Source of the DNA: an uncultured Acetatifactor sp.
GTDB lineage: Bacteria; Bacillota; Clostridia; Lachnospirales; Lachnospiraceae
Reading direction: 5' to 3'
Length of the DNA stretch: 62,040 bases
Assembly (NCBI GenBank): GCA_934402315.1
Contig: CAKRTS010000020.1
Location: 1-62,040, forward strand
In this document: positions 12,566 to 34,756 of the stretch, one piece after another
Numbering within the stretch: the stretch's first letter is position 1
Layout: the number at the start of each line of letters is the position of its first letter
Notes under the pieces: model-generated
Told to the model about the DNA's origin: nothing
Seen by the model: the letters and a program-made list of their open reading frames with translations, nothing else
Databases searched by the model: none
Program-made: the position numbers and the translations under genes

Positions 12566-12723
12566 ATCCTCTTCTCACTTTCGTTTTGTATCTGAATTTT
12601 TGTTTTATATGATTTCTCTGTTCACGCATATTTTTTCATCCGTTACACATACTATTCGCAAATCAGCCATTCTGCATTCCGCAGTGGACGATTTTGCAGC
12701 TTATCTATCAAGAACGGAGAAAA
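12566..12723. other. Intergenic region between divergent hisA and lipoprotein gene
   Basis: I see no gene in this stretch. It is T-rich on its left half (probable hisA leader) and no confident promoter stands out. The right end leads into the inverted repeat at 12724 and the 64-bp element at 12751. Confidence 0.5.
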
Positions 12724-12748
12724 GATTGAAAAATAATATTTTTCAATC
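12724..12748. repeat. Perfect 11-bp inverted repeat
   Basis: GATTGAAAAAT (12724-12734), three-base loop, ATTTTTCAATC (12738-12748). It has no T-run after it on the plus strand. It may be an operator or the first hairpin of a structured leader that continues into the 64-bp element. Confidence 0.7.
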
Positions 12749-12750
12749 AC

Positions 12751-12814
12751 GAGATTTGTGTCTGCGCGCACTTGACACAAACTCGCTATGCGCAAAGAAC
12801 GTGCGCAGAAATGG
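12751..12814 (+). repeat. 64-bp leader element, copy A
   Basis: Matches 33870-33933 (minus strand, before argR) at 56 of 64 positions with no gaps; all eight differences are transitions. It contains TTTGTGTC (12755-12762) and GACACAAA (12774-12781) as a perfect inverted repeat around 11 bases, and GTGCGC (12801-12806), which can pair with GCGCAC (12766-12771) inside that loop. It ends 8 bases before the lipoprotein ATG and supplies its GGGG ribosome site edge. The function is unknown. Confidence 0.8.
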
Positions 12815-12822
12815 GGAAAACT

Positions 12823-13329
12823 ATGAAAAATAATAAGCGTCCCGCAGGAGCGAAGAAGCTCCTCGCATTATGTATGGTGCTGGCATACATGTGTGTTGCA
12901 ACCGCATGTACCAATGACAACAAGGGAAACAATTCCGGTAATATGGCAGGAAACAATGCCTCCAGCGAGTCCGGTACAAATGTTCCGAATGACAATGGCA
13001 CAAACAACAATAACAACAGTGTAACCAACGGTACGGACAACAATACCAACAACGCCAACAACGGGAACTCCCTGTTGGATGATGCCGGAAATACTGTCGG
13101 TGATATTGTCGATGATGCCGCGGACGGCGTAAAGGACATCACGGATGACCTCGTCGGTGACGGAAACAACCGCACCGACAACAACGGCGGTCTCAACGAT
13201 AACAACGGCATGAATGACAATAACGGCACTGTCAACGGAAACGGAACAACGAACAACGGCACCGGAACCCTGAACAACACATCAGCCAACGGTACCAGAA
13301 CCGGCAACCCCGGAACAAATCTTCGCTAA
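12823..13329 (+). CDS. Asn/Gly/Thr-rich low-complexity lipoprotein
   Basis: The start is the ATG at 12823, seven residues of Lys/Asn then a hydrophobic core and lipobox VATAC (Cys at about residue 29); longer readings run into the 64-bp leader element. The mature part is almost entirely Asn, Gly, Thr, Asp and Ser with short repeats (NNGT, DNNG), apart from a small amphipathic piece LLDDAGNTVGDIVDDAADGVKDITDDLVGDG in two halves (about 84-115) that looks like a YtxH/CsbD-style acidic helix. Probably a surface or spore-envelope protein; no function can be assigned. It has its own leader and no obvious partner gene. Confidence 0.75.
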   Translation: MKNNKRPAGAKKLLALCMVLAYMCVATACTNDNKGNNSGNMAGNNASSESGTNVPNDNGTNNNNNSVTNGTDNNTNNANNGNSLLDDAGNTVGDIVDDAADGVKDITDDLVGDGNNRTDNNGGLNDNNGMNDNNGTVNGNGTTNNGTGTLNNTSANGTRTGNPGTNLR

Positions 13330-15105: not shown

Positions 15106-15603
15106 TTATTCCCATACCTTGAATTTCACGGTCTCAATCTTGGAAACCTCATCAGCCAGCACACAAATTTCATCGTTCAGTTTAATGCCCGTCAGGATCA
15201 CGCTGGTATCCTCACGGCACTCCAGCATTGCCTTAAGGTCTTCAACGGATACAATTCCCTTTTCCACCAGTCCCAGAACCTCATCCAGAATCAGCAGATC
15301 ACATTCTCCCGTTGCAAGCACCTTCCGCGCAAAATTCATTCCGTTTCTGATATTGCTGATCTCCTCTGCCTTCTTCTCCTCCGGCAGCTCCTCAAAATTC
15401 TCATCGGACTTTTCAAATCGGAACAGCTTGATCTCCGGCTCCATCCTGCGGAGGAACTCCGAGTCCTTCAAGCCCTTTCCCTTCAAAAACTGGATTATGA
15501 CTACCTGCTTCCCCTCCATCGCCGCCTGAACGGCTCTGCCTATCGCAGCCGGTGACTTTCCCCGTCCGTCTCCGGCATATATATAGATCAAACCCTTTGC
15601 CAT
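15106..15603 (-). CDS. CobA/BtuR-type cob(I)alamin adenosyltransferase-like ATPase
   Basis: The start is the ATG at 15603 (MAKGLIYIYAGDG) with GAGG before it; the upstream extension is part of a leader. The P-loop reads GDGRGKSPAAIGRAVQA (about 10-26), keeping Gly, Lys and Ser but with Pro where Thr is usual. IQFLKGK, LFRFEKS, LLILDEVLGLVEKG (Walker B) and VILTG follow the family order. CobA enzymes transfer adenosyl from ATP to cobalt of corrinoids. No other corrinoid genes are here; the gene heads the dapA-dapB group. It may be a true adenosyltransferase or a relative with a different job. Confidence 0.8.
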   Translation of the reverse strand: MAKGLIYIYAGDGRGKSPAAIGRAVQAAMEGKQVVIIQFLKGKGLKDSEFLRRMEPEIKLFRFEKSDENFEELPEEKKAEEISNIRNGMNFARKVLATGECDLLILDEVLGLVEKGIVSVEDLKAMLECREDTSVILTGIKLNDEICVLADEVSKIETVKFKVWE

Positions 15604-15694
15604 AACAGTCCTCATTTCCGCATACACTTATCGCGTCCTAAAGTTAATGCTCATGTAAGAATACCACACTTTTTACATTTTGGCAAATAGTCTC

Positions 15695-16508: not shown

Positions 16509-16540
16509 TTACTCAGTTTGAAATTCGATGTATGCTTTAT

Positions 16541-16554
16541 CGTGCGCAGAAATG
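16541..16554 (+). repeat. Short related piece of the leader element (copy C)
   Basis: Fourteen bases, GTGCGCAGAAATGG, identical to the right end of the 64-bp element at 12751-12814, and again placed directly before a ribosome site (GGAG) and start codon. The rest of the element is not present here. Confidence 0.5.
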
Positions 16555-16563
16555 GAGATAAAA

Positions 16564-33399: not shown

Positions 33400-33861
33400 T
33401 CAATGACGGTCAGCCTTTACCAGTCCCTGTATCCTCTCCATCAGCGCCTTCGTCTCCTCCACGCTTCTCACCGCGGCAAAAATCGTGTCGTCACCGGCGA
33501 TACAGCCGACGAGCTCCGAAAATTTCAACGCGTCCAGCGCGGCGGCCACTGCCATCGCCATGCCGGAAACCGTTTTGATGACAAGAATATTCTGCGCCAT
33601 ATCCATAGAGACATACCCTGCTTTCAGCACACGGATATATTTGTCTCCCATGTGGCCGTCCTCCTGCTTTAAGACGGCATATTTCTGCCTGCCGCTTCCG
33701 GCGGGAACCTTCGTCAGCCGCAGCTCCCGGATGTCTCTGGAAACCGTCGCCTGTGTCACGGCAAAGCCGGCATCCCGGAGCCTTGCCGCCAGCTCCTCCT
33801 GCGTCTCCACATCATTCTGTTGGATAATTTCTACAATTCTCTCATGTCGGTTTTTTTTCAT
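33400..33861 (-). CDS. argR: Arginine repressor ArgR/AhrC
   Basis: Arginine-dependent hexameric regulator of arginine synthesis and breakdown. The start taken is the ATG at 33861 (MKKNRHERIVEIIQ); the codons before it are the 64-bp leader element. Winged helix 1-70 (DVETQEELAARLRDAGFAVTQATVSRDIRELRL) and arginine-binding trimer domain (about 80-153) with GCIAGDDTIFAAVRS. 153 residues is normal. No strong ribosome site precedes this ATG (GGA only), so an ATG four codons upstream is an alternative. Confidence 0.94.
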   Translation of the reverse strand: MKKNRHERIVEIIQQNDVETQEELAARLRDAGFAVTQATVSRDIRELRLTKVPAGSGRQKYAVLKQEDGHMGDKYIRVLKAGYVSMDMAQNILVIKTVSGMAMAVAAALDALKFSELVGCIAGDDTIFAAVRSVEETKALMERIQGLVKADRH

Positions 33862-33869
33862 GATTATGT

Positions 33870-33933
33870 CCATTTCCGCGCACGCCCTCTGCGCATAACA
33901 AGTTTGTGTCAAGTGCACGCAGACACAAATCTT
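33870..33933 (-). repeat. 64-bp leader element, copy B, before argR
   Basis: Fills the whole gap between the nadK stop and argR. It matches 12751-12814 at 56 of 64 positions. The inverted repeat TTTGTGTC-N11-GACACAAA is fully conserved, and the changed positions in the second pairing (GTGCGC with GTGCAC) keep pairing through G-U. Read as codons, both copies give L-T-Q-T-x-Y-A-Q-R-x-C-A-E-M. Confidence 0.8.
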
Positions 33934-34756
33934 AAATCTCCGTCATTTTCTTGTGAAGCACTTCCAGAAAGCTGACCTGATTCAGCTGCAAAAATTCTGT
34001 CATCTTTTCCGACTGGACAATCCGGATTCTGTCCCCGGTGCATAAAGTTGCGCCGTGGCTTCCGTCAAAGCTCGCCTCAACGGTCTGGATCTCTCCGTCG
34101 CTGCGCTCCGGAATCTCAATCTCCACCACATCCTCCGGAGACAGAATAATGCTCCTCTGGTTCAGCGTATGCGGACAGATCGGTGTCAGCATAATCAGCT
34201 TTGCCCTCGGCTCGACCAGCGGGCCTCCCGCAGACAGATTATAGCCGGTAGACCCGGTCGGGGTCGTCACAATCATACCGTCCGCACTGTAATCATTCAG
34301 AAAAAGTCCGTTGACATAGATGTTGAATTTGATGATCTGCAGCGAGCCCTTTCTCGATATGACGATGTCATTCAGCGCCCAGCCCTCCTCGGTTCTGCCG
34401 TCCTTCAGCACGGCCTTTCCGTAAAGCATCATCCGGCTTTCCTGCTCGTAATCTCCCTGTATGAGCCGCTCCAGCGACTCCTCCAGATTTGCCGGCTCAA
34501 TCTCCGTCATATAGCCGAGCGTTCCGAGGTTGACGCCGATAATCGGAATGTTCCGCTGCCTGGTCTCGCGCGCCGCCCGCAGCACCGTTCCGTCCCCTCC
34601 CAGGACGATGATGCAGTCGGCTGTCTGGTTCCATTCCTCATCTCCCGCCTTGACAGACACACGCTGCCCACGGCTCTCCAGATAGCTGCAAACCCGCTTT
34701 GTCATAACCAGATTCTCGTCCTTATGTCTGTTGGTATAGACCAGAAAATGCTTCAT
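33932..34756 (-). CDS. nadK: NAD kinase
   Basis: Phosphorylates NAD to NADP. Visible: LGGDGTVLRAAR (catalytic Asp, GGDG), NLGTLGYMTEIE, ALNDIVISRKG, DGMIVTTPTGSTGYNLSAGG and the beta-sandwich end. 274 residues is typical. Starts 9 bp after tlyA with AAGGAG as ribosome site, inside the nusB-to-recN block. Confidence 0.96.
   Translation of the reverse strand: MKHFLVYTNRHKDENLVMTKRVCSYLESRGQRVSVKAGDEEWNQTADCIIVLGGDGTVLRAARETRQRNIPIIGVNLGTLGYMTEIEPANLEESLERLIQGDYEQESRMMLYGKAVLKDGRTEEGWALNDIVISRKGSLQIIKFNIYVNGLFLNDYSADGMIVTTPTGSTGYNLSAGGPLVEPRAKLIMLTPICPHTLNQRSIILSPEDVVEIEIPERSDGEIQTVEASFDGSHGATLCTGDRIRIVQSEKMTEFLQLNQVSFLEVLHKKMTEI

Follow-up and report, generated by a model that had tools for sequence, protein, structure and literature searches.

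The region upstream of an Asn-rich lipoprotein-like gene raises the question of why one sequence should stand directly before two unrelated genes, and whether it serves there as a structured RNA leader, as a coding leader or as a dispersed repeat. Comparison of sequences points to a family of elements with a common fold and a fixed geometry, which in some gut bacteria precede dozens of unrelated genes, lie between an older Shine–Dalgarno (SD) sequence and the start codon, and differ in copy number between sister genomes. We consider it reasonably probable that the element is a dispersed, mobile-type translation-initiation module, acting via a pseudoknot docked next to the SD. Neither the large dispersed family nor its location after an older SD and before the start codon was part of the preliminary description of this DNA.

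The window (the whole stretch of 62,040 nucleotides that was analysed) holds two copies of the element, at 12751-12814 on the plus strand (copy 1) and at 33870-33933 on the minus strand (copy 2). As had been described, they are identical at 56 of 64 positions without gaps, and all eight differences are transitions. The inverted repeat TTTGTGTC-N11-GACACAAA is likewise the same in both, and the outer stem of the hairpin built on it (P1) shows paired changes from CGAG/CTCG in copy 1 to TAAG/CTTG in copy 2. The 64 bp are indeed common to both copies, but the element is longer than this: a 25-nt hairpin (P0) lies upstream in copy 1, and the 3' end reaches the SD at 12816. Both copies were scored by a model named R1 (E values in Table 1), which was built from 33 copies with an exact core and counts the two among these 33 training sequences. 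These are the only strong copies in the window; a search with a second model, R2, added a 3' half before typA and a doubtful copy before a CobO-type gene. The recurrence of one end of the element before typA, reported earlier, was found again (CGTGCGCAGAAATGG of copy 1 at 16541-16555), but it comprises the 3' half only and the P1 hairpin is absent. Judging from its start on the nadK stop codon, copy 2 probably lies inside an operon. The Pfam search of the protein encoded after copy 1 gave no match, and a tRNA search of the window found none.

Table 1. Positions of the element's parts, of further candidate copies and of adjoining genes in the window.
Feature	Position	Strand	Basis
GGAG, probable older SD 5' of the element	12716..12719	+	Sequence; GGAG/GAGG peak upstream of P0-bearing copies
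P0 hairpin GATTGAAAAAT..ATTTTTCAATC, with TTG at 12726-12728	12724..12748	+	Sequence; perfect hairpin on folding
Copy 1 core (model positions 1-68)	12749..12816	+	R1 E 1.2e-20; R2 E 1.3e-21; trained both models
P1 of copy 1: CGAG-a-TTTGTGTC (12750-12762) with GACACAAA-CTCG (12774-12785); loop TGCGCGCACTT 12763-12773	12750..12785	+	Minimum-energy fold; pair counts
Copy 1 pseudoknot strand 1, GCGCAC, inside P1 loop	12766..12771	+	Pairing and covariation counts
Copy 1 pseudoknot strand 2, GTGCGC, ending 16 nt 5' of ATG	12801..12806	+	Pairing and covariation counts; spacing in other copies
Extended SD AGAAATGGGG of copy 1	12807..12816	+	Element tails against 16S rRNA 3' end (assumed sequence): mean -9.5 kcal/mol, 172 copies; control -3.1
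Gene after copy 1: Asn-rich lipoprotein-like protein, 168 aa	12823..13329	+	ORF
Copy 2 core, P0 absent, starting on nadK stop codon	33868..33935	-	R1 E 6.3e-17
nadK	33932-34756 (ORF)		Pfam NAD_kinase
P1 of copy 2: TAAG-a-TTTGTGTC / GACACAAA-CTTG; pseudoknot strand 1 GTGCAC 33913-33918	33899..33934	-	Sequence
Copy 2 pseudoknot strand 2, GTGCGC, 16 nt 5' of ATG, one G-U pair	33878..33883	-	Sequence
argR after copy 2	33400..33861	-	Pfam Arg_repressor 1.7e-25, Arg_repressor_C 8.9e-27
Degenerate copy before typA, 3' half, no P1 hairpin	16511..16557	+	R2 E 4.5e-4; R1 E 0.05; typA by Pfam BipA_C
Doubtful degenerate copy before CobO-type gene	15610..15693	-	R2 E 0.027; GCGGAAATGAGG-n7-ATG, ATG at 15603; Pfam CobA_CobO_BtuR

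Distribution of the family and its position before start codons

The search for further copies in related genomes, which the preliminary description had suggested, yielded 172 distinct copies, taken from chosen regions among the listed matches. Fifteen copies from faecal scaffolds stand outside the 172; also left out were a plus-strand match in locus L098 (E 0.045), a truncated match (L007 1-54) and repeated hits at identical places. Independently of the model, the resemblance of the two window copies exceeds chance, in that exact occurrences of the 27-bp core, with either C or T allowed at one position, were found in 31 stretches of public genomes, several of them from the same genome in some cases. 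The titles of the core-bearing records name Lachnospiraceae, Clostridiaceae, Roseburia, Lachnospira, [Clostridium] symbiosum and uncultured bacterium.

Matches to R1 at E <= 0.01 were found in all 18 core-bearing genomes searched, which had been picked for holding the core, with from 1 to at least 90 matches each. In samples not picked for the core, and with the query genome counted in, the carriers were at least 19 of 250 genomes of the family, 10 of 22 genomes of one genus (at least 63, 19, 7, 7, 3, 2, 2, 1, 1 and 1 matches) and 4 of 25 genomes of another genus, the already-known G012 being included in the last count. Because of these proportions, the element is widespread yet patchy in Lachnospiraceae. 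In the class and phylum samples, where the filters were stricter and 12-13 candidates were scored per genome, it was present in at least 1 of 391 genomes (the query genome itself) and at least 2 of 398 (the query genome and G965), respectively. The copy numbers per genome are lower bounds wherever more candidates existed than were scored (150 per genome; 18 in the family sample of 250).

The earlier statement that no named element of this form is known agrees with our searches, which gave neither a matching Rfam family nor a named counterpart in the literature. At the curated score, Rfam 15 had no match in the window and none for the element in 17 loci of several subfamilies (the one hit being a tRNA), and a permissive Rfam scan of positions 12600-12950 returned only two weak matches, both to unrelated families. 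The literature search, judged by titles and the openings of abstracts and with most subscription papers and all preprints outside its coverage, found the element described nowhere.

The copies are closely tied to gene starts, a relation that had been named as a check on the reading as a leader. An open reading frame starts 5-7 nt after the element in 153 of the 172 distinct copies and 0-19 nt after it in 161, compared with 161 of 4000 random points in loci L062-L141 that passed a similar 5-7 nt test. The first batch of 126 distinct copies gave the same picture, with a start after the element in 121 and at 5-7 nt in 112.

Predicted fold and the adjoining Shine–Dalgarno sequence

P1 consists of TTTGTGTC paired with GACACAAA and, beyond a bulged A, of an outer stem that covaries (CGAG/CTCG, UAAG/CUUG and others). 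The strand GCGCAC in the loop of P1 pairs with GUGCGC downstream and, because P1 and this loop-to-tail helix interlock, the RNA is predicted to be an H-type pseudoknot; its third loop is long, in many copies rich in A, and may contain another hairpin. The pairing of GCGCAC with GTGCGC had been noticed before and was taken for one of two mutually exclusive folds; the pairing exists, but it forms the second helix of a pseudoknot and is able to coexist with the hairpin. RNAfold, which excludes pseudoknots, gave for copy 1 the P1 hairpin and a rival hairpin between linker and tail, and its best fold for the argR copy lacks P1 (z -1.39). The linker-tail hairpin was rejected, since a 5-bp complement of the tail is present in the linker of only 20 of 53 diverse copies; the P1 loop holds a 6-bp complement of the tail in 45 of the 53.

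The alignment of these 53 copies contains one copy per 82% identity cluster and none longer than 90 nt; the two window copies, L001 and L083 were added, and L026_3089, L204_643, L064_456 and L132_1415 were removed by hand. Compensating changes had been proposed as a check on the stems, and the pseudoknot pairing does covary over this set. Its six pairs are standard in 92.1% of cases, compared with 75.9 ± 2.0% for shuffled tails (maximum 81.9 of 1000), and partners slid by 1-4 positions gave 6-68% standard pairs. Pair 5 is A-U in 32 copies and U-A in 14, and pair 6 is C-G in 29 and G-C in 15. The covariation of the whole structure was 0.258 as against 0.164 for shuffled alignments (0 of 500 reached it) and at most 0.121 for the slides. 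Support is weaker for the 33 exact-core copies, whose P1 core is invariant by selection: two-sided changes were seen in four pairs, a number reached by 69 of 500 shuffles, and the covariation score was reached by none of 500.

The strands of the pseudoknot differ by subfamily (GCGCUGC/GCAGCGC, GUGUUGC/GCAACGC, GUGCAC/GUGCAC). Inside single genomes, the match of each loop to its own tail scored 6.81 in G014 as against 6.77 ± 0.11 for shuffled tails (6.29 against 5.76 ± 0.19 for Watson-Crick pairs only) and 7.10 in G008 as against 6.94 ± 0.10, and own tails in G357 had no excess over shuffled ones. Given this nearly absent advantage of own tails, the covariation is evident between subfamilies and not copy by copy, and it could mirror the needs of spreading and not those of each host gene.

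The extended SD AGAAAUGAGG directly adjoins the second pseudoknot strand, about 16 nt before the start codon. Pairing of the tails with the 3' end of 16S rRNA (assumed sequence) gave -9.5 ± 1.5 kcal/mol over the 172 copies and -3.1 ± 2.5 kcal/mol over control stretches (positive values set to 0). As R1 and the model R2 both include the SD tail, its conservation among the fetched copies is partly due to selection, which does not apply to the position of the start codon. From the end of the pseudoknot to the start codon there are 15-17 nt in 158 of 159 copies and 16 nt in 118, the 159 being those in which the tail motif was found and a start codon lay 3-9 nt downstream of the element; this search interval itself confines the range. 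In both window copies no U-run, such as a transcription attenuator would have, was seen by eye between the pseudoknot and the start codon.

This spacing would place the pseudoknot where the platform of the 30S subunit would be, as is the case for the rpsO pseudoknot of Escherichia coli. The latter is reported to dock by its SD on the 30S platform and to be melted there, and S15 to block the melting (PMC3858243). The element resembles this leader in its combination of a pseudoknot with an SD, initiation in rpsO depending on the melting, and differs from it in that rpsO is one gene whose pseudoknot includes some coding sequence, whereas the element is wholly upstream and precedes many unrelated genes.

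The unit that we propose is composed of an optional AU-rich P0 hairpin, an H-type pseudoknot (P1 and the loop-to-tail helix) set against an extended SD, about 6 nt and the start codon. The mRNA would bind the 30S subunit via this SD, with the pseudoknot on the platform 16 nt before the AUG. Initiation would then proceed only once the pseudoknot has melted or has been bound and held by a factor, and this step would set or regulate the translation of every gene that bears a copy.

Compact pseudoknots next to an SD are also a feature of translational riboswitches, and preQ1-II and SAM-II share with the element an H-type pseudoknot with an A-rich third loop, a possible extra hairpin within it and the adjoining SD. 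A classical riboswitch, or a regulon operator answering to one metabolite or protein, is nevertheless very improbable in our estimate, since those riboswitches are tied to one pathway whereas the element has no Rfam match and stands before genes in which no common pathway was recognised by eye. They include rplT, glmS, trpB, trpF, argR, an htpG-like gene, deoB, lipoproteins, transporters and others (named by eye from the N-termini, argR being confirmed by Pfam), so the initial view of a structured leader common to unrelated genes is upheld. Few downstream genes are common to different genomes: the 161 downstream proteins contain only 7 homologous groups that reach at least two genomes, and the pair G001/G002 takes part in 4 of these; no common trans gene was found through downstream recurrence in this set. 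The argR gene bears a copy in two genomes, that of the window and G008 (L095/L150). No copy was seen in the remaining 27 NadK-argR junctions, inspected over 130 nt upstream, and 2 of 30 loci had no argR match.

Older ribosome-binding site and leader frames

A perfect P0 hairpin stands just 5' of P1 in 99 of the 172 copies, and its stem varies with matching changes (GTGTG/CACAC, GATTG/CAATC, GGTTG/CAACC, GAGTG/CACTC). GGAG or GAGG lies within 14 nt upstream of P0 in 64 of the 99, compared with 4-10% in windows ending 9-30 nt farther up, and copies without P0 have no such peak at the start of the element (<= 7%). The rplT gene of G357 is preceded by ...AAAAGGAGGAGTATCA-[element]-ATGGCAAGA, while its congeners have, for example, ...AAAGGAGGAAATATAAG-ATGGCAAGA. 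Before trpB of the same genome the SD is kept in front of P0, and the element-free congeners have the order SD-spacer-ATG, as for rplT. Because a second SD occurs just upstream of P0 and the relatives of rplT and trpB agree, the element is located downstream of an older SD and upstream of the start codon; it brings a new SD and appears to replace the ribosome-binding site. A new copy would come to lie after the SD of the host gene and directly before the start codon, and translation of the gene would then start from the SD of the element. The relatives compared for glmS, trpF and deoB are too distant to reveal an empty site, and rplT of G358 is preceded by a copy of a different subfamily (L225).

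Other repeated stretches were seen near some copies. In six loci of G357 (L173, L174, L177, L179, L180 and L183) a repeat of roughly CCTACGCTACGCTTCGGAATGGAGG lies just upstream of P0 and ends in an SD; it is perhaps another, older family of ribosome-binding repeats. Four loci of G214 (L102, L104, L106 and L108) have a different hairpin before P1, AACCAACTTTGTTGGTT, with tandem repeats in L106. Stretches such as GCGCTGCTT or GCGCAGAATGTGCG precede the glmS start codon in two congeners (L234, L238); they are perhaps decayed copies.

The window copies read LTQTRYAQRTCAEM / LTQTCYAQRACAEM in the frame named LTQT, exactly as the preliminary description had it, and a leader peptide had been offered there as a rival explanation. 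This frame is not kept in other copies: of 134 copies, 63 have it in phase with the gene, and in 53 it runs into a stop ahead of the gene. A more general form of this explanation, in which ribosomes start at the NTG of P0 from the old SD, translate across the pseudoknot and are then coupled to the gene, would account for the SD-spaced NTG at or near P0 in 72 copies, with a frame open to the gene start in 47 of them. We regard it as improbable, since the resulting peptides use different frames over the same core and the 72 frames end in different ways (an early stop in 14, an in-frame fusion with the gene in 19, an end close to the gene start in 34 and a long overlap into the gene in 5), and since 73 of the 172 copies have no P0 by the criterion used. 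The comparison of frames is biased, because NTGA creates a stop in one of the other frames. A conserved peptide can be ruled out; some leader may be translated.

A promoter was also considered and rejected. TTGACA is present with no matching -10 by eye, linker inserts reach about 34 nt, and copy 2, which begins on a stop codon, is for that reason an unlikely promoter.

Spread of the element and comparison with known repeats

Inside one genus the number of matches per genome ranges from 0 to at least 63. Four identical 69-nt cores stand before unrelated genes in G357 (L172-L175), and tandem copies are present (L064). Because copy number is uneven within the genus and some copies are identical, the family can be said to spread, and it has features of a mobile repeat, namely multiple dispersed copies and presence or absence between close relatives.

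These features also suit the main alternative, a selfish, MITE-like DNA repeat whose fold would serve its own mobilisation (as single-stranded DNA or RNA), whose SD would make insertion at a start codon harmless and which would regulate nothing. The unrelated genes and the covariation lying mainly between subfamilies fit this explanation too. However, no pair of terminal inverted repeats was seen by eye in the inspected copies, where the 5'-terminal P0 is not matched by an inverted sequence at the 3' end, and no target duplication was evident at rplT or trpB, the relatives being too distant for empty sites at the level of single bases. The Y1_Tnp transposase (IS200/IS605-type) is present in 7 of 10 carriers as against 4 of 12 non-carriers of one genus and does not clearly track the element; no transposase or autonomous relative of the element was identified. 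Moreover, a neutral repeat would be expected elsewhere between genes as well, yet 153 of the 172 copies end 5-7 nt from a start codon. We therefore hold a purely selfish repeat to be unlikely, though by no means negligible.

An origin from phages or plasmids was rejected. Viral contigs had no exact match for three patterns and plasmids had no exact match. A phage collection contained 18 matching records, all faecal 'Bacteriophage sp.', of which 12 were fetched (L287-L298, MT83xxxx), all of them marked UNVERIFIED. In these records the element precedes bacterial-type genes and, on account of the housekeeping genes read by eye in L289 (polA, coaE, nagA/nagB-like, ptsI-like), the phage-labelled records were taken for bacterial DNA.

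A dispersed repeat is of a known broad kind; the site, its own SD and the pseudoknot set this element apart. REP/REPIN and TnpA-REP (RAYT) repeats are likewise short, palindromic and present in high copy. REP doublets are reported to be distributed at random in extragenic space (PMC3116915), whereas the element is found in a single orientation at a nearly constant distance from start codons and includes a pseudoknot and an SD. Like the element, Rickettsia palindromic elements (RPE) and other MITEs are dispersed, lie in or at unrelated genes and can be read through. A review describes RPE as encoding a conserved peptide and as lying inside ORFs in nearly half of the cases (PMC10969869), whereas the peptide of the element is not conserved and its site is the junction of SD and start codon.

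Returning to the translation-initiation module that we favour, it is a tentative but serious possibility that the element is a portable ribosome-binding site and thereby a new class of mobile element, a pseudoknotted RNA cassette that inserts precisely between SD and start codon, takes over translation and puts dozens of unrelated genes of a cell under one translational control. So exact a site suggests that the translation-initiation region guides integration itself. Known small bacterial repeats lie between or inside genes, whereas this one occupies the few bases that separate the SD from the start codon. Should it be regulatory, copying a single RNA part would allow a cell to rewire how many of its genes are translated; should it not be, the repeat would owe its survival to mimicry of the site it has displaced. 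Either way, its copies would provide natural experiments on how structure at the 30S platform affects initiation.
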